This document shows positions 2,181-58,304 of a stretch of DNA of 64,000 nt, piece by piece. The position numbers and the translations under genes were made by a program. Source of the DNA: Bacteroidales bacterium (lineage in GTDB: Bacteria; Bacteroidota; Bacteroidia; Bacteroidales; UBA932); NCBI GenBank assembly GCA_024401925.1, contig JAKSKD010000003.1, positions 38,499-102,498 of the forward strand. Reading direction: 5' to 3'. The number at the start of each line of letters is the position of its first letter. Position 1 is the stretch's first letter. A model generated the notes under the pieces. That model saw nothing but the letters and a program-made list of their open reading frames with translations. It ran no database searches and was not told where the DNA came from.

Positions 2181-2286
2181 GAGGGGCCCGCAGGATACAA
2201 GTCATTGCGAAGACAATGACGCAGGAGACTGTGGGAAGGATGGAGCGAAGCGGAAGTTTTGCAGTGAGAGGTGTCAGAAAATGTTC
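2181..2286 (-). repeat. Second, inverted copy of the 106-bp repeat
   Basis: Read on the minus strand, this stretch matches 1179-1284 at 105 of 106 positions by hand alignment; the one difference is CTCC versus CACC near one end. It lacks the right-hand third of the full element at 1167-1353. It begins 66 bp after higA and ends 8 bp before the stop codon of the TonB-dependent receptor. Positions 2115-2180 between higA and the repeat show no gene. Confidence 0.8.
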
Positions 2287-2294
2287 TCGTATGA

Positions 2295-4253
2295 TTAATA
2301 AACTGCGAAGGTGATTTTCAGGGAACCGTTGAAAGGTGCGGCAGGATAGACACCGCCGGAATAGGCATAGGCGTAATAATGACGGTTGAAAATGTTATTC
2401 AGATATGCTCCGAGGCCGAGACGCCCTTGCCTGTGTGCTCCGATCTGAAAATAGAAATCCGTGGAATAGTCAAAAGCCGTAGTGCAATATGAAGGAACAA
2501 GATGCTCCAAAGAGGAACTGTTGTCCCAATATTGTTTTCCTACATATTTTGTGGTGAGGCGGAATCGACCGGCTTTTTCGAAGTCGAAGAATGCGCTCAA
2601 TCCACCGACAAATGAAGGGCTCAGAAGTATCTCTTTTGACACATCAGACCCATCCTTGTATCGGTTGGAACTGATGCAGGCATTTCCTTCGAAACGCAGC
2701 CAGGAAGTGGCGGAAGCGGAAGCGGATAGTTCCACTCCCCTCCTGAATCCCATCTCAACATTGCTCTTCACAGCATATCCGGATGAATTCAGAATACCGG
2801 TTTCCAGCAGCATATCCCTATATTCCATAGCATAGACATTGGCTTCGGCAGAGAAAATATTCCCCGTATATGTGTAGGCGGCCTCGACATCAAGCATTCT
2901 TTCAGGGCGTACGGAGAGATCCGCCTGGATATCCGAGCGCGACGGTTCCCTGTTTCCAATTGCCGCATACGCACGTAAGCCCTGATTGTCTGCAACCTGA
3001 AAATTTACTCCCAATCGCGGGCTAAGGAAATTCCAGGATTCCTGATAATCCAGCATCTGGCTGTACTCATCAGGACCGGACATATTATGCAGCACTCCCC
3101 TGTACTGCAGTTCCTCATACAGCAGGACGCGGTCATTCACACTCCATTCGGCACGCTGCCAAATATCCGCTTCATTCTTCACGGCAGAGTTACGGTACCA
3201 CTGCACGCTGTCCGCTTCCCCGAAATGCTGCCCGTCATAATGCGAGAGATAGACACCGGCTCGGAGGCTGACCTTATTAAGATCCGCATTCAAATCAGTC
3301 CTGACGACATAAAGTCCATTATCAAGCGCGTCCTTAGTTCCGGGATAGGCATAGTACCCCGAGCCTTTGGAATAATTCAGAGTCGTACTCCAGGATAGCG
3401 CGTGCCACAAATGTGAATAATTAAATTGGAAATGGTTCTGGATATAGTTGTCGGTTGCGCCCGGAGCGGCATTGTAACGAGGATCCTTGTCAAAAGTCTC
3501 AAAAGGAACACCCTCCCAGGTTATTCCGGTACATTGTTTTCCCTGCAAAAAAGTAAACCGGACAGAATTATTGTCATTCTTCCATCCGGCCACGCCATAA
3601 ATAGAACGGACATCAGCCGGAGCATTCCTGATGTACCCGTCCGAATGGCTGAGCGAAAATGCGGCATCAGCATAAAAACCGGATGGAAGTGTACCCGATG
3701 ATGCAGAGACAGAAGCTCCGAAAGTACCGAAAGACCCGGCGGAGATGTCTGCGGAGGCGCTGGCGGCATCATGGACTCCCGTGGCAAGGTCTATTCCGGC
3801 TCCGAATGACCCCGGCCCGGCTGAAATTGTACCGAGGCCACGCTGCATCTGCACGGACCCGAGGATGCCGGACAATCCGGGAATGTTCACCCAGAAAACC
3901 TCCTGGGATTCAGCATCATTAAGCGTAATGCCATTTAGAGTGACATTCGTCTGATAGCCGCCTACGCCCCTGATCCTTATGGAGGTATAGCCAAGACCCG
4001 TACCGCCTTCCTGAGTGGAAACGACAGACGGAAGCGAGCCTAACATCATTGGCAGGGACGAGGCCGGTTCCGACCGTTCCAATTCAAGTTTTCCGACAAA
4101 GACATTGGCAACGGGCGTAAGCTTCCCGGCTCTTGAAGCCGCGACCACGACACTGTCAATCCTGTCATTTTCAAACGATTTCCCGTCATCCGGACCTACT
4201 GACGGGGCAGTGGAGAAAAGCAGCGCGAAAGCTGCGAACAAATCAATAATCAT
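2295..4253 (-). CDS. TonB-dependent outer-membrane receptor, probably for thiamine
   Basis: A 652-residue protein with a short signal peptide, a plug domain from about residue 30 to 160 (DSVVVAASRAGKLTPVANVF; LPSVVSTQEGGTGLGYTSIR with IRGVGGYQTNVTLNGI) and a 22-strand-type barrel ending in aromatic-rich strands (YYAYAYSGGVYPAAPFNGSL, last residues TFAVY). Such receptors import a ligand across the outer membrane using TonB energy. Directly upstream is a TPP riboswitch (4254-4325), which in other Bacteroidota marks thiamine receptors such as the OmpT type of Bacteroides; the substrate call comes from that. There is no N-terminal carboxypeptidase-like or signalling extension and no SusD partner. 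No inner-membrane PnuT or thiamine kinase gene is adjacent. Confidence 0.85.
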   Translation of the reverse strand: MIIDLFAAFALLFSTAPSVGPDDGKSFENDRIDSVVVAASRAGKLTPVANVFVGKLELERSEPASSLPMMLGSLPSVVSTQEGGTGLGYTSIRIRGVGGYQTNVTLNGITLNDAESQEVFWVNIPGLSGILGSVQMQRGLGTISAGPGSFGAGIDLATGVHDAASASADISAGSFGTFGASVSASSGTLPSGFYADAAFSLSHSDGYIRNAPADVRSIYGVAGWKNDNNSVRFTFLQGKQCTGITWEGVPFETFDKDPRYNAAPGATDNYIQNHFQFNYSHLWHALSWSTTLNYSKGSGYYAYPGTKDALDNGLYVVRTDLNADLNKVSLRAGVYLSHYDGQHFGEADSVQWYRNSAVKNEADIWQRAEWSVNDRVLLYEELQYRGVLHNMSGPDEYSQMLDYQESWNFLSPRLGVNFQVADNQGLRAYAAIGNREPSRSDIQADLSVRPERMLDVEAAYTYTGNIFSAEANVYAMEYRDMLLETGILNSSGYAVKSNVEMGFRRGVELSASASATSWLRFEGNACISSNRYKDGSDVSKEILLSPSFVGGLSAFFDFEKAGRFRLTTKYVGKQYWDNSSSLEHLVPSYCTTAFDYSTDFYFQIGAHRQGRLGLGAYLNNIFNRHYYAYAYSGGVYPAAPFNGSLKITFAVY

Positions 4254-4325
4254 TTCCTTACGGCGGTATGAACCGCATCAAGTTCAAAGGGACTCTCTCA
4301 ATCCGTTTCCGGATACCCCAATCAT
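4254..4325 (-). promoter_or_regulatory. TPP (thi-box) riboswitch
   Basis: On the minus strand the order of conserved parts is complete: GGGG (P2), a P3 stem ATCCG-GAAA-CGGAT, TGAGA, then CCC closing P2, TTTGAACTTGAT, a P4 stem GCGG-TTCATA-CCGC, and CGTAAGGAA. Each matches the thiamine-pyrophosphate aptamer consensus. The final AAGGAA abuts the receptor's ATG at 4253, so control is likely at translation initiation. The aptamer starts right after the stop codon of the upstream gene at 4326, so its promoter must lie inside that gene or the two are co-transcribed. Confidence 0.9.
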
Positions 4326-7322
4326 TTATTTTTTGAATTCTTCAAGAGTTTTCCTGAAGATATCGCATATCTTGTTTCTGTCCTTGAGTGTTTCCAACGG
4401 GAATCCGACGGACAGTACCTTGTACGAGCCTGAATTATACAGTACAGCAGCTGAGACCTCTGTTCCCGGATAAAGCATCACAATCCTGCCCTTTTTTGAG
4501 GCCGGAATGAGGCCGTCCACATTCTCCGCACAATAAACCTGCTCATTGACCTCATTATAGAAGTCGAATTCATCATGGCCAAAAATAGTTCCGTTCCCAT
4601 ATGCCTTTCCATACGGAGAAGCATATGCCATACGCCATTTATAACCTAAAACATCCTTCACAAATGCAATGTCCGCCTCGCGCGCCACGCTGTCAATCTG
4701 ATAAGGAAAAACCTTGTCCCACACATCTATTCCTATATGTGCACCCGAAAGAATGACATCTCCGCCCTTTTCAGTGAAGCCTCTTATGGCAGACTGAAGT
4801 GCGGACGGAAAGACCTTGTATCTATTTTCAACGGCTCCTCTTCCCATCATTGTGGTCACCTGCTTCCCGCATATAAGGTCAATAGCAAATGCATTGTCCA
4901 CCAATGAGGTATCTGCGCACCAGGCATCTCTGCTGACAGAATAGAAAGCATATCCGGCATCCATCAGAGCCTTTCCGTGCACCGACGCGAAATCGAAAGT
5001 ATTGCCGGCAATTACCATCCCGGCGTGGTCAGTATAGGATGAGCCGAAACCTCCGTTGTCATTATCAACCCATTCCAAGTCCCTGCGCTTCTGATAATTC
5101 TCTCCACCATACGAAATATCATACAAATATGGGACGCCGCTGTCAAGTTCTCTGTCAAACCCGGCATAATCGGGTGTATCGAACCAGGTCGGGGCAGAAA
5201 CGCGATCGAAATTATTGACAACCATCACTGTATTTGCCGTTTCATTCCAATCCGCGCTGCTTCCCGGCAATCCTACGCAGACAGTCTCCGACGGAAAACT
5301 CTTTCCTCCGTCATTATAGGCAATCACCCTGAAACTGTATATCCTTCCGGCCTTAATACTGACATCTGTATAGAACGTGTCGCCAGAGCGTTTCAGTTCG
5401 GATGAAGGAATTATTTTTCCGGAACTGAATACGCCTGAGCCTTCTCGGATTTGAAGAATGAATCCAGTGGCATCAGCAGTCGGTTCCAGAGGATCAGAAG
5501 TAGATTTCCAGGAAATTCTTGCGATACCTTGTCCTATCTCCGCAGCCATCGAGCCGACAGGAAGAGGCTGTACCACATATGGCTTCCCGTACATATTGCT
5601 CAGGAACTTGAGCATTCCCTTATATACGCTCCTGCTCACAGTGAAACGGAATGTCGGATCAAGTCCGTGCTTCATATCCGCAAAATTCTGGTGAGACAGA
5701 GTTTCCAGAATCATTCCCGGAACAGATGTCGTGCGGCTCTCGCTGTATGACCTGTCCCAGGTTTCCCGCCGGGTCCATTCCGGCTCAAAATAATGCCTGA
5801 TATCATTTACGACCTGACTCTGGACAAGGTCTGTGTATGAACGTGACAGGTTCCTGTCCTTTCCGTCAGGAAAGACCGTGGATCTATCACAAACAAGTGT
5901 GTAGATTCCAAGAGTACCTATAATAGAATCATTCTGGCTACTTCCGGCATCACTGTGGAATCCAAGCGAGAGATCCACAGGAACTCCCTTTTCTTGTTTC
6001 ATCATAGTGGTCCAGGCGCCCCTGCTTGCAAGATCCTTGGTGTAATCACCCTCCCATTTTTCGGTAAGAGACTCATCCGATCCGGCCCACTGTTCCCAAT
6101 ATAGAGCGCCCTCCACGAATGAAGGCAGTCCTGAAGTGCAGCCTTCTCTCTCATATTTTCCAATCCCTCCGCCAATCTTGACCGCATCGGCTGAGACAAC
6201 GCTGCCCTTTTCAAAACGTGCATCCTTTACCGTCCCATTGTCAAGCACGACACTGCTGTTGCCAGACATTTCAAATGTACCAAGATAGACCCAGGTGCCA
6301 CCAGAAATTTTTTGGTTTACTGTAAATTCTGTTTTTCCTCCAAGATGATTGACCGTATAATGGGCATATTCGCTGCTGTTCGGCAATGAAGAATATGATA
6401 CATAGACAGCATATTTTCCACGTTCCTCCACCTGTACTTCCCACACAGCCATGGCCGTCGGGGCCTCTTTTGCCGTTATTTCCGTCATACGTGTCGTACC
6501 CATAGAGAATGGTGTCTCCCCGAGACTGTAGTAGAGCTTGCTGTCCGCGAATCCGGTCTCCCCATCCGTCCATTTCCCGGACTCGAAATATTTGCCGCTG
6601 CGTCTTGTCAAACCCTCACGGGGCTCCGTGAATGAAGGATCGTTGTCAACGATGAATTCACGCGGCTGGATATCGCGTTCCCTCGGAGTAATGACGTATG
6701 CTCCCGCATTCTCAAGCATAGGAATAAGGAACGGTATCACATAACTCTGTGTATAGATATCCTCAACCGTAGTATGGAGCGGTGCCCTCATCCATTTCCA
6801 TTGATGCTCGTCATTGTTGAAATAGCGTCCGTGGCTCTGCCAGAGAGCAATATGTTTTCCACTCATCCCTCTGCGGAAATTCATTCCCCCGATTTCGTGA
6901 ACGAAATTTACCGGGGGTTCTTCTTCATATGCAAACCGGTACATAGCCGGACGTCCGCTATTGCTCAGGGCCGGGGTTACATAATTTTTGAGAGGACGCG
7001 TATGGACATATATTTCGCCGGCCTTGCAATCATCATAATCATCAGGCAGAATTTCGTTCAATTCTCCCTTGAACCAGGAAATGTCGCCGTCATACCAGGG
7101 AAAATCCCCGAGTTTTGTCGAAAAATAACAATCAAGAATGCCACCGCGCTTCTGAATCTTCTCAAATTTCACTTCGGATTCGACTCCCGTCCTTTGCTTC
7201 AGCAGCACATTCAATGAATCTGCGACCTTGACGAAGTCATCCCCCAGAGGGACACGCTGAGCAAGTGAAACAGATGCAGAAGAAAAAAGAATGATGAGAA
7301 GAGTCAGGACTTTCTTTGGCAT
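4326..7322 (-). CDS. Secreted N-acetylmuramoyl-L-alanine amidase-like protein with golvesin-like and FN3 domains
   Basis: A 998-residue protein with a signal peptide (MPKKVLTLLIILFSSASVSL). The N-terminal half looks like an Amidase_3-type fold split by an insert: GKHIALWQSHGRYF near residue 155, a conserved HSDAGSSQND and LGIYTL near 460, and ILETLSHQNFADMKHG near 550 supply candidate zinc ligands and the catalytic Glu. Inserted at about 250-375 is a beta domain typical of golvesin/xanthan-lyase-type proteins (VWEVQVEERGKYAVYVSY). A fibronectin-III-like segment follows at about 600-690, and the last 300 residues form a domain I cannot name. Peptidoglycan cleavage is inferred. It overlaps the VanZ gene upstream by 19 nt. 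Confidence 0.6.
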   Translation of the reverse strand: MPKKVLTLLIILFSSASVSLAQRVPLGDDFVKVADSLNVLLKQRTGVESEVKFEKIQKRGGILDCYFSTKLGDFPWYDGDISWFKGELNEILPDDYDDCKAGEIYVHTRPLKNYVTPALSNSGRPAMYRFAYEEEPPVNFVHEIGGMNFRRGMSGKHIALWQSHGRYFNNDEHQWKWMRAPLHTTVEDIYTQSYVIPFLIPMLENAGAYVITPRERDIQPREFIVDNDPSFTEPREGLTRRSGKYFESGKWTDGETGFADSKLYYSLGETPFSMGTTRMTEITAKEAPTAMAVWEVQVEERGKYAVYVSYSSLPNSSEYAHYTVNHLGGKTEFTVNQKISGGTWVYLGTFEMSGNSSVVLDNGTVKDARFEKGSVVSADAVKIGGGIGKYEREGCTSGLPSFVEGALYWEQWAGSDESLTEKWEGDYTKDLASRGAWTTMMKQEKGVPVDLSLGFHSDAGSSQNDSIIGTLGIYTLVCDRSTVFPDGKDRNLSRSYTDLVQSQVVNDIRHYFEPEWTRRETWDRSYSESRTTSVPGMILETLSHQNFADMKHGLDPTFRFTVSRSVYKGMLKFLSNMYGKPYVVQPLPVGSMAAEIGQGIARISWKSTSDPLEPTADATGFILQIREGSGVFSSGKIIPSSELKRSGDTFYTDVSIKAGRIYSFRVIAYNDGGKSFPSETVCVGLPGSSADWNETANTVMVVNNFDRVSAPTWFDTPDYAGFDRELDSGVPYLYDISYGGENYQKRRDLEWVDNDNGGFGSSYTDHAGMVIAGNTFDFASVHGKALMDAGYAFYSVSRDAWCADTSLVDNAFAIDLICGKQVTTMMGRGAVENRYKVFPSALQSAIRGFTEKGGDVILSGAHIGIDVWDKVFPYQIDSVAREADIAFVKDVLGYKWRMAYASPYGKAYGNGTIFGHDEFDFYNEVNEQVYCAENVDGLIPASKKGRIVMLYPGTEVSAAVLYNSGSYKVLSVGFPLETLKDRNKICDIFRKTLEEFKK

Positions 7323-50450: not shown

Positions 50451-50513
50451 GTGATTCTTTTCAGATGGGATAAACAAAACAATTCATTAAGCAACTAATC
50501 CACTAATTTTCTT

Positions 50514-51333
50514 GTTGTTAGTCATTCCTTTTCTACATCAAACCACAATTAGTTCAGGTTGCCATTGTTGCCGTTGAAGTTGTTAATCATTCCTTTTCTA
50601 CATCAAACCACAATTACGAACAAGGAAGTCTGATTCTTGGAACGTTGTTAATCATTCCTTTTCTACATCAAACCACAATTAATTATGCTTTTATACTCTC
50701 TCGGCAGAGGTTGTTAATCATTCCTTTTCTACATCAAACCACAATCAAACAATTTTGAAAAAATCTTACATTTGGTTGTTAATCATTCCTTTTCTACATC
50801 AAACCACAATTTTGACGAAAGACGTGCAAGATATGAGCAGTTGTTAATCATTCCTTTTCTACATCAAACCACAATCAATATGGATGCAGTTATTACATTT
50901 GTCGAGTTGTTAATCATTCCTTTTCTACATCAAACCACAATTCATATGGAGAGGACGGATACCTATTGGTAGTTGTTAATCATTCCTTTTCTACATCAAA
51001 CCACAATTTGCACCTGCGGATTTGTTACCTGCCTGTGTTGTTAATCATTCCTTTTCTACATCAAACCACAATTCGACCTTGTCGATCATATCATCTTGAC
51101 CGTTGTTAATCATTCCTTTTCTACATCAAACCACAATAAGTTCGCTTATCATATTTCTTGATTATTTGTTGTTAATCATTCCTTTTCTACATCAAACCAC
51201 AATTTAATGTTAATGCTAATGTTAACGTGATGGTTGTTAATCATTCCTTTTCTACATCAAACCACAATTAAGATTTATCTTGCAAAATATCTTGTCAGTT
51301 GTTAATCATTCCTTTTCTACATCAAACCACAAT
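50514..51333 (-). CRISPR. Type II-C CRISPR array, 13 repeats and 12 spacers
   Basis: A 36-bp repeat recurs 13 times with spacers of 29-30 nt (period 65-66 bp). On the plus strand it starts GTTGTTAATC and ends AAACCACAAT. The copies agree except the first (50514-50549), which has TTAGTC for TTAATC. The minus strand is the likely crRNA strand: its repeat begins ATTGTGGTTTGATGTAGAA, which pairs with the anti-repeat of the tracrRNA at 56413-56490. In that direction the array starts at 51333, next to cas2 and the leader, and the degenerate repeat is the last one, as expected for the leader-distal end. Spacer origins cannot be told here. Confidence 0.97.
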
Positions 51334-51459
51334 CTGCAATGCCTAATTGATTGTATTGTAATGGTTTATGATGCAATTTGCATAGAAAAAACATCCGAGC
51401 CAATAGCCGCAGACGCAAAATGATGCAGAAAAATATTTCAAAGAACTACTTTTTTCAAT
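51334..51459 (-). promoter_or_regulatory. CRISPR leader region
   Basis: About 126 AT-rich bp separate the last array repeat from the end of cas2. In the inferred direction of array transcription (minus strand) this is the leader, where new spacers would be added. No clear TAnnTTTG box was found. Confidence 0.45.
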
Positions 51460-56685: not shown

Positions 56686-56720
56686 GAAAAAGAAACCGCT
56701 ACCTCGTCTGAGGTAACGGC
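56686..56720 (-). terminator. Rho-independent terminator of the TAC operon
   Basis: CCGCTACCTC (56696-56705) and GAGGTAACGG (56710-56719) make a 10-bp stem with one mismatch and a 4-nt loop. On the minus strand it is followed by TTTCTTTTTCT. It lies 81 bp downstream of the chaperone gene. The rest of 56491-56800 has no gene that I can support. Confidence 0.65.
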
Positions 56721-56800: not shown

Positions 56801-57250
56801 TTATTCTTCAACAGATATTCCATTTTTCTCTACGAGTGTTTTAACCTCAATCATCGGAAGAGGGTATTTCGCAAGGGGGGTACCTGATGTTCTGGCATAT
56901 ACTATTCCTCTGAGAGTGCTATACGCCGCGCCCACAAGGGATGGGAAGATGTCCGCTTTCACATTAATCCTTTGGTTTTCTTTATCTACAGCGATTGCAC
57001 TATCAAGATTTAGAACAGAGTATGTGAATACAGCGTTGGCAACTAATAATTCGTTCCCTTCGTAGGAATATCGAATGCTCGGAATTACAAGAATAGTATC
57101 CTTTGACATCTGTATTACAGTGTCAATCTTATATTGGAATTTTAATTTCTCTTCAGGAATTGAGGAGAAATCAACTCCTTCAAAGTTTGGAGCATAGCGC
57201 TCATTGTCAATTGAGACAAGTCTGAACTTTATATTAACTTTCTCTTCCAT
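56801..57250 (-). CDS. SecB-like chaperone of a toxin-antitoxin-chaperone module
   Basis: A 149-residue protein resembling SecB in length and strand order: VNIKFRLVSIDNERYAPNFE, KLKFQYKIDTVIQMSKDTIL, SIRYSYEGNELLVANAVFTY, SVLNLDSAIAVDKENQRINV, DIFPSLVGAAYSTLRGIVYA and TPLAKYPLPMIEVKTLVEKN. The F-P-x-x-x-x-x-A-Y-S-T-L-R-G helix followed by L-P is the SecB-type end (general SecB: FPxAR..V...T..GGFPPL). Gene order toxin-antitoxin-chaperone, 18 nt after the antitoxin, is that of TAC modules, in which the chaperone stabilises the antitoxin. No ordinary secB is visible in the window for comparison. Confidence 0.7.
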   Translation of the reverse strand: MEEKVNIKFRLVSIDNERYAPNFEGVDFSSIPEEKLKFQYKIDTVIQMSKDTILVIPSIRYSYEGNELLVANAVFTYSVLNLDSAIAVDKENQRINVKADIFPSLVGAAYSTLRGIVYARTSGTPLAKYPLPMIEVKTLVEKNGISVEE

Positions 57251-57268
57251 AATGGTTGTCTATGATAG

Positions 57269-57832
57269 TTATTGGCATGTTGCCCATCTCGATTTTCTTA
57301 TCGAATAGGCAATGGGAGGATATATCAATGGAATAATCTCATCGAATTGAGGGTAGTATACTTTGGCGAGGTTAAAAGATCTAGGCTCAGCATATGATTC
57401 GACCTTCTCTCTTACCCGCTCAAAATCTTTCCCCAATTTGACGCGCGCTCCATCAATACTTTTCAGAAGGGACTCTTTTTCAAAAAGAGTGGAAAGTTTT
57501 TGGCCTACAATGATTGTCGGCATTTCGCCATTTTCATAAAGCCCGTACTGGTTGATTCCAATACCTGCAATCTTTGACATTATGTGAGCGGACAATCCAT
57601 ATTTTTCCCTGAGATTCTTCAATTCTGACGGAGAAGGAATGCCGTGACGCTTACGATACTGGCAATAGACATCTTCCATCAATCTATCATCAACATCAGC
57701 ATTCGTAAAAGTCTTTCCGGTATCCACGCACTCAAAATAATACGCCAAGACAGTATACTCTTCATTTCTGAATGTAAATGTCTCTTGTCTGGATTTTTTT
57801 ATGACGTTTCCGCCTGTAAATGGGCTTTTCAT
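57269..57832 (-). CDS. MqsA-like antitoxin of the TAC module
   Basis: A 187-residue protein. Residues 1-60 (MKSPFTGGNVIKKSRQETFT, VLAYYFECVDTGKTFTNADV) correspond to the MqsA zinc-binding domain, but the Cys of both C-x-x-C pairs are mostly replaced (SPFTG; CVDTG). Residues 70-125 are an XRE/MqsA-type HTH: ELKNLREKYGLSAHIMSKIA, GIGINQYGLYENGEMPTIIV, GQKLSTLF. About 60 further residues extend beyond the HTH and end YPPIAYSIRKSRWATCQ; in TAC antitoxins such an extension is the chaperone-dependent (ChAD) part (inference). Its ATG overlaps the toxin stop (ATGA). Confidence 0.75.
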   Translation of the reverse strand: MKSPFTGGNVIKKSRQETFTFRNEEYTVLAYYFECVDTGKTFTNADVDDRLMEDVYCQYRKRHGIPSPSELKNLREKYGLSAHIMSKIAGIGINQYGLYENGEMPTIIVGQKLSTLFEKESLLKSIDGARVKLGKDFERVREKVESYAEPRSFNLAKVYYPQFDEIIPLIYPPIAYSIRKSRWATCQ

Positions 57833-58221
57833 AACTCTGTATTAAAAGGGAACAACATTTCAAATTTGGCTATATGGAAGGATATGCAATAGTTTGATGC
57901 ACCTTCGGTCTTGGTAATATATATCTTTATGTAGATTGGTATCTTTTTCCCTTTACCTCGCTTTTTGATACCTATTCCAAACATCCATACAGGTCCCTCA
58001 TTTTCATCATATTCATTTTCTTCAGGGCCTTGATAATAATCCTCCGGTCTGAGATTCAATATGTATTGGTCTCGCTTGCTTCCAAATAGTTCCAGGTCTA
58101 AAAGTGTTTGCCTGTTTTCTCCTTTGTCTTCATTATATACTATGCCGAAAACTCTTGCTTTCTCTTTGAATTCGTTCAAGAAAGCCTCAACCTCTTCTTT
58201 TGTCGCTTTATTATCGGCCAT
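57829..58221 (-). CDS. MqsR-like toxin of the TAC module
   Basis: A 130-residue protein: KEEVEAFLNEFKEKARVFGI, NRQTLLDLELFGSKRDQYIL, NLRPEDYYQGPEENEYDENE, GPVWMFGIGIKKRGKGKKIP, IYIKIYITKTEGASNYCISF and HIAKFEMLFPF. The end S-F-H-x-A-x-x-x-M-x-x-P-F and the Y-x-x-G-P motif are typical of the MqsR-type toxins of Bacteroidota; MqsR cleaves mRNA at GCU-type sites. The frame is open to 58281, but the start at 58221 is chosen because the -7 box 58239-58246 lies inside the longer frame. Toxic activity is inferred. Confidence 0.75.
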   Translation of the reverse strand: MADNKATKEEVEAFLNEFKEKARVFGIVYNEDKGENRQTLLDLELFGSKRDQYILNLRPEDYYQGPEENEYDENEGPVWMFGIGIKKRGKGKKIPIYIKIYITKTEGASNYCISFHIAKFEMLFPFNTEL

Positions 58222-58238: not shown

Positions 58239-58246
58239 CAAAGGTA
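58239..58246 (-). promoter_or_regulatory. -7 promoter element of the TAC operon
   Basis: The minus strand reads TACCTTTG (TAnnTTTG). TTTG repeats upstream (about 58257-58270) can serve as -33 element. The toxin start at 58221 follows 17 nt downstream. Confidence 0.5.
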
Positions 58247-58304
58247 GAAATAAATAAACAAACAAACAAAAATATAAACAAAAATCGAAACGGATTCGTT
58301 TTGA

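Follow-up and report, generated by a model that had tools for sequence, protein, structure and literature searches.

We report a three-gene toxin-antitoxin-chaperone (TAC) operon from a Bacteroidales genome, which is probably an MqsRA TAC of one genus of that order, built by exchange of the Panacea domain of its antitoxin for a chaperone gene and a short addiction tag. MqsRA-SecB TACs and the grafting of chaperone-addiction (ChAD) regions are experimentally known (PMC5105189), so the kind of system is already known; what looks new is the exchange of Panacea for a 63-residue tail plus a chaperone gene. In the titles and abstract openings of the open-licence literature, we found neither a Panacea-for-chaperone exchange nor anything on MqsRA-SecB TACs of Bacteroidota. 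The model as a whole (a three-gene operon, a chaperone-dependent antitoxin, and a Panacea domain that has been replaced) seems likely to us.

Operon and control elements

The window (the whole stretch of DNA analyzed, 64,000 nucleotides) comes from a genome of 1.86 Mb (G000; 89% complete, 67 contigs). Gene order, gene families, conservation, selection, motif distribution, and the absence of Panacea are direct observations. Three reading frames stand open on the minus strand in the order toxin, antitoxin, third protein, and the tight packing described in the first-pass annotation (a 4-nt overlap between toxin and antitoxin genes, then an 18-nt gap between antitoxin and chaperone genes) is real. 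The features lie at the following positions of the window.

57829 to 58221, minus strand: MqsR-like toxin gene with a conserved Tyr97 in YIKI (open reading frame of 130 aa from the ATG at 58221; alignment; relatives match Pfam MqsR_toxin; dN/dS 0.10)
57269 to 57832, minus strand: MqsA-like antitoxin gene (187 aa, comprising a degenerate zinc-ribbon domain, a helix-turn-helix [HTH], and a 63-residue tail; Pfam PF15731, 2.8e-9)
57272 to 57460, minus strand: antitoxin tail, residues 125 to 187, proposed ChAD region (alignment of seven copies; purifying selection)
57278 to 57295, minus strand: C-terminal motif K-S-R-W-A-T, residues 180 to 185 (pattern in 8 of 82 putative antitoxins)
56801 to 57250, minus strand: SecB-like chaperone gene (149 aa; PADLOC PDC-M64C, 1.4e-11; weak profile comparison with SecB)
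58239 to 58246, minus strand: TAccTTTG, a promoter -7-like box (all seven copies have TAnnTTTG 5' of the toxin)
58288 to 58301, minus strand: inverted repeat AAACG-AATC-CGTTT (as read on that strand), proposed antitoxin operator (conserved among copies)
56695 to 56720, minus strand: hairpin resembling a terminator, with a U-rich run after it (folding energy, -18.5 kcal/mol; z = -4.75)

The operon had also been credited with its own promoter and terminator, and the conserved box and the stable hairpin listed above agree with this. A second promoter element, TTTG, lies 20 nt further upstream of the -7-like box, and the two together fit the promoter pattern of Bacteroidota. TAnnTTTG is placed 26 to 29 nt before the ATG end in six of the seven copies and about 6 nt closer in L149. 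The arrangement AAAC-N6-GTTT can be read by eye 5' of the toxin in all seven copies; exact inverted-repeat patterns were found in four of the seven TAC copies and have a single match in the window; at 12 Panacea loci they have none.

Toxin and antitoxin

The toxin had been called MqsR-like from the letters alone, and membership of the MqsR family is supported by kinship, although the window protein itself has no match in Pfam or NCBIfam. Of 14 toxins in the alignment, 9 match Pfam MqsR_toxin with E ≤ 1, the best of them at 8.3e-5, and a Bacteroides finegoldii plasmid protein 40% identical to the window toxin is annotated as MqsR family. Six residues (Y97, I98, K99 and S114, F115, H116) are invariant across the 14, and Y97 in the YIKI of the window toxin aligns with the Tyr of YLKI in Escherichia coli MqsR. 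Mutating the predicted catalytic Tyr is described as abolishing the toxicity of an MqsR (PMC10440598). PADLOC matched neither the toxin nor the antitoxin of the window.

A designed helical protein was the sole PDB match of the toxin profile (E = 0.76) and was taken as chance. An ADP-ribosyltransferase toxin of the CmdTAC type was rejected, the toxin aligning with the MqsR family and matching no other Pfam family, as was a HigBA-SecB type, the antitoxin being of the MqsA family and the toxin falling outside a cluster of 35 toxins from other SecB loci.

By its profile matches, the antitoxin is a member of the MqsA family, as first annotated: PF15731 (MqsA_antitoxin) matches at 2.8e-9 (37.6 bits, above the cut-off of 30) and TIGR03830 at 4.2e-15, yet below that model's cut-off. 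A four-cysteine zinc site is typical of MqsA. The window antitoxin lacks it (SPFT stands in place of CPxC, and CVDT in place of the second CxxC), and the site is also lost in 10 of the 12 Panacea rows of the antitoxin alignment. Pfam found no Panacea domain in the window antitoxin. The C-terminal extension that the first reading had put at 60 residues measures 63 and can be aligned across seven copies.

Third protein

Profile comparisons make it likely that the third protein is kin to SecB. A 49-row chaperone profile aligned with eight SecB sequences along 131 colinear columns and scored 24.6 (P = 0.0032), although the probability assigned by hhalign was only 10.0%; its controls reached a maximum score of 18.7 over at most 45 columns (100 column shuffles) and 14.1 (reversed). 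With 84 rows, the alignment covered 126 columns (P = 0.016; hhalign probability, 2.8%), against shuffle maxima of 16.8 in score and 24 in columns. Searched against the PDB (hmmsearch, E ≤ 10), the 49-row profile had two matches only, both E. coli SecB and both weak, covering the first 84 positions with E values of 1.0 and 1.1. The SecB-like label given at first reading is weakly supported by the broad profiles and not by the narrower ones: a 17-row profile had no match in the PDB, Pfam SecB had no match among 17 family members, and comparison with SecB gave P = 0.39 for 32 rows and P = 0.44 for 3 rows, the last with a SecB set containing wrong-frame open reading frames.

PADLOC matched the third protein to its candidate component PDC-M64C (1.4e-11), which is present in 38 of 395 genomes sampled from the class and in none of 14 controls; component C was the only one of the PDC-M64 candidate system to be matched. 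Viral contigs held no relative of the chaperone, and plasmids held one, in a distant HTH-type TAC of Persicobacter (L058). Just upstream of that TAC, a 65-aa open reading frame at 2671 to 2868 matches the MqsA profile at 2e-20.

Several SecB-like genes of Bacteroidales (L065, L071, and L088; also L067, L070, L076, and L086) have no recognizable toxin-antitoxin pair adjoining them, and three of these solitary genes stand beside what we take to be a rho-like gene. They are possibly the housekeeping SecB of that order. Nine SecB proteins of Bacteroidetes have been placed in a SecB tree (PMC4361572).

Conservation of the trio

The first relatives found in genome contigs were L025, with the trio intact, and L026, with an in-frame stop and a deletion in the toxin. 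Among 398 genomes sampled from the family, 45 match the chaperone profile, and the six strongest chaperone matches besides the window all have an MqsR-MqsA-chaperone trio; further chaperone loci read in this set carry other toxins and antitoxins. Seven copies of the trio are thus at hand (G000, L025/G1332, L026/G1285, G1264, G1306, G1392, and L149/G1373), all from one genus among the sampled genomes. The order toxin-antitoxin-chaperone is kept in all seven, so that the genes first read as a single operon are indeed linked in every copy found.

The toxin is open in five copies and broken in two, L026/G1285 and L149/G1373 (internal deletion), in both of which the antitoxin and chaperone stay open. 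Between the window and L025, dN/dS is 0.10 for the toxin, 0.08 for the antitoxin, and 0.08 for the chaperone; the antitoxin tail alone gives 0.10, that is, purifying selection. These ratios come from L025 only, because dS against L026 is saturated or undefined.

Probable Panacea exchange

The toxin profile matches 23 of 296 genomes sampled from the phylum. According to our own profiles, an MqsA-Panacea antitoxin stands at a toxin match in 19 of these 23 toxin-bearing genomes, some of the toxins being partial; of the others, G217 has MqsA-Panacea on another contig (L020), the partner in G154 is weakly MqsA-like and lacks Panacea, G044 yielded fragments, and a chaperone is present in G000 alone of the 23. 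Pfam SocA_Panacea is found in 12 of 16 aligned antitoxins, and the four without Panacea (as judged by length and our own profile) are those of the window, L025, L026, and L024. From the side of the chaperone, a toxin open reading frame was assigned by position in 46 of at least 61 chaperone loci; 35 of these toxins form one other cluster, and MqsR-like toxins were seen, among the loci listed, only in the window, L025, and L026.

In toxin and antitoxin N-terminus trees, the TAC rows adjoin the Panacea pair L003, which belongs to the same order, with support of 83/63 when two TAC rows were used and of 95/74 and 86/74 when five were used. When a Panacea-only clade was put to the approximately unbiased (AU) test, P was 0.031 if two TAC rows were included and 0.0508 if five were, the E. 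coli outgroup of these trees being very long. In a tree of antitoxins alone, the TAC rows fall within a group of 17 rows whose zinc ribbons are degenerate (80/94). From these trees, the TAC clade is likely nested inside the Panacea group, and replacement of the Panacea domain by the tail and chaperone would be the simplest reading, with modest support. We give an even chance to a broader reading, in which Panacea and a SecB chaperone with its addiction tag serve as exchangeable triggers for a common MqsR/MqsA core: the chaperone would have brought its own short tag, K-[SA]-R-W-x-[TS], into this genus, and the two would also have been transferred jointly to an unrelated toxin-antitoxin pair. 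Panacea has been proposed as a sensor, a role that the authors of that work favor (PMC10440598).

A decayed second MqsR/MqsA copy lies in the source genome itself (L024, on G000:C46), its toxin split over two frames and its 166-aa antitoxin carrying neither Panacea nor the tail. Viral contigs yielded one toxin relative, in an MqsR/MqsA-Panacea pair. Such pairs in L057 (a viral contig) and L004 (a genome) adjoin genes that we take to be DNA methylase or HsdS-like genes, and the pair in L059 (a B. finegoldii plasmid) likewise adjoins a DNA methylase or HsdS-like gene.

Tail motif

At their C-terminal ends, all seven aligned tails carry K-[SA]-R-W-x-[TS] or a near variant, as with K-N-S-R-W-A-T in L148. 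The pattern [KR]x?[AS]RW[ASTV][ASTC] was searched in the last 35 residues of open reading frames shorter than 200 aa that were taken by position as antitoxins. It occurs in 8 of 82 putative antitoxins beside such chaperones, namely all 7 of the MqsA TACs and 1 of 75 others (L154), a count to be read with a pattern devised after the tails were known and with some of the 75 probably not being antitoxins. Residue shuffles of the 75 other tails gave at least one motif in 100 of 20,000 trials. The L154 locus matches neither MqsR nor MqsA, and its chaperone is sister to the seven-copy chaperone clade (support, 96/77; long branch). That the lone outside carrier of the motif has the sister chaperone suggests joint transfer of chaperone and tag, as a single sensor module.

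The Mycobacterium tuberculosis ChAD is reported to touch its chaperone mainly through W108, R110, and Y114 (PMC6377645), and its two stretches are similar to the segments, rich in aromatic and basic residues, that SecB binds (PMC5105189). By analogy with these contacts, the conserved RW end of the tail is therefore a good candidate for the predicted chaperone contact.

Genomic neighborhood

The window reads TAC, cas9, cas1, array, obg, with a CRISPR array of 13 repeats (50513 to 51342; period, 65 to 66 nt). In L025, a type II locus (cas9, cas1, cas2, array) lies directly upstream of the TAC, obg follows the TAC, and the array (2261 to 4906) has 23 repeats plus a last degenerate copy (period, 76 to 78 nt). 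These are distinct systems, at 45% for Cas1 and at 23% over part of Cas9, with different repeats. Upstream of obg, one and the same site is occupied in these two related genomes by two different type II CRISPR arrays.

The TAC stands at obg in four of the seven copies (window, L025, L146, and L148). Its position beside CRISPR-Cas9, which the first-pass annotation had stressed, is true of the window and L025, but the other five copies have no Cas9 or Cas1 match in their flanks (4.5 to 9 kb; Cas9/Cas1 queries alone). With only two of seven copies adjoining, the co-occurrence is suggestive and the link is not general. A general defence hotspot upstream of obg was considered but found no support: none of 10 same-genus obg regions matched the cas9/cas1 or TAC queries (tblastn), the regions read being 10 of 11 such places, with upstream stretches of about 2 to 14 kb, all without a TAC. 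Elsewhere, the HTH-antitoxin SecB TACs L045, L047, and L058 adjoin what are presumably HsdR-like type I restriction genes, and the TACs L048 and L054 adjoin a gene that we assume to be DUF262-like.

Proposed mechanism and alternatives

We infer every biochemical step of the mechanism, and likewise the role in defence and the direction in which the exchange took place. The MqsR-like protein, as its family implies, would cleave mRNA and inhibit growth; the MqsA-like N-terminal domain would neutralize it, and the HTH of the antitoxin would repress the operon at the conserved inverted repeat. The 63-residue tail would destabilize the antitoxin unless bound by the SecB-like chaperone, for which the terminal K-[SA]-R-W-x-[TS] may be the main contact, as suggested by its conservation and by W108, R110, and Y114 of M. 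tuberculosis HigA1. Titration of the chaperone, for example by an abundant unfolded phage protein, would lead to loss of the antitoxin and a halt of growth by the toxin. Tail and chaperone gene would have taken the place of Panacea, the proposed sensor of the sister MqsR:MqsA-Panacea systems.

A phage-defence role, as first proposed, is plausible by analogy with CmdTAC, which is described as perceiving phage capsid through its chaperone (PMC11618068) and so sets a precedent for a TAC with such a sense. Two copies also stand at one chromosomal site beside type II CRISPR loci that differ from each other, which speaks against a system without any phage role. A chaperone-addicted TAC serving general stress or its own upkeep, with no phage role, nonetheless stands only slightly below an even chance: it would account for the five copies whose flanks lack a Cas9 or Cas1 match and for the two in which the toxin is broken while antitoxin and chaperone remain open, as in selfish toxin-antitoxin loci.

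Both of these readings share the chaperone-dependent antitoxin, which two other explanations would dispense with. If the third gene were a general or export chaperone that is merely co-transcribed, the antitoxin would be independent of it; the solitary SecB-like relatives in Bacteroidales, some beside the presumed rho-like genes and in the same wider clade, fit such a view. We find it quite improbable, given linkage to the toxin-antitoxin pair in all seven copies found, a conserved tail that occupies the Panacea position of relatives, and a motif that tracks the chaperone lineage into another toxin-antitoxin pair (L154). The tail could also target the toxin or DNA, with the RW motif of L154 a coincidence. 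This would be easier to accept for a pattern devised with the MqsA tails and L154 already in view, and with one match outside MqsA, on a long branch; it is rather unlikely in light of the rarity of the motif in the shuffled tails and of its coinciding, in that one match, with the sister chaperone.

Relation to known systems

The window operon and its Panacea counterparts, in which the same toxin and neutralizing domain seem to be joined to two different sensing modules, offer a controlled comparison for the question of how Panacea antitoxins sense their trigger. The short tag motif is testable for chaperone binding. If Panacea and the tagged chaperone are indeed interchangeable, chaperone addiction would have a naturally occurring example of its transfer, and the proposed sensor role of Panacea could be tested through module swaps on one core.

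One of the nearest counterparts is the Vibrio cholerae RC385 MqsRA-SecB TAC as described in PMC5105189, with an MqsR-family toxin, an MqsA-family antitoxin bearing a C-terminal extension, and a SecB-like chaperone; compared with it (by description, not sequence), the window tail has the RW motif, and the antitoxin half is close to Panacea-bearing MqsA. MqsR:PanA (MqsA-HTH-Panacea; PMC10440598, PMC8832971) shares the Bacteroidota toxin family and an N-terminal antitoxin half 25 to 44% identical, whereas the window operon has the tail and chaperone gene instead of Panacea. HigBA1-SecB of M. tuberculosis (PMC6377645, PMC5105189) follows the same plan, and in both systems W, R, and aromatic residues in the tail are the proposed basis of chaperone addiction, but its toxin and antitoxin families differ. 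CmdTAC (PMC11618068) likewise has three genes with a SecB-like chaperone; its CmdT is described as an mRNA ADP-ribosyltransferase, in contrast to the MqsR-like toxin of the window.
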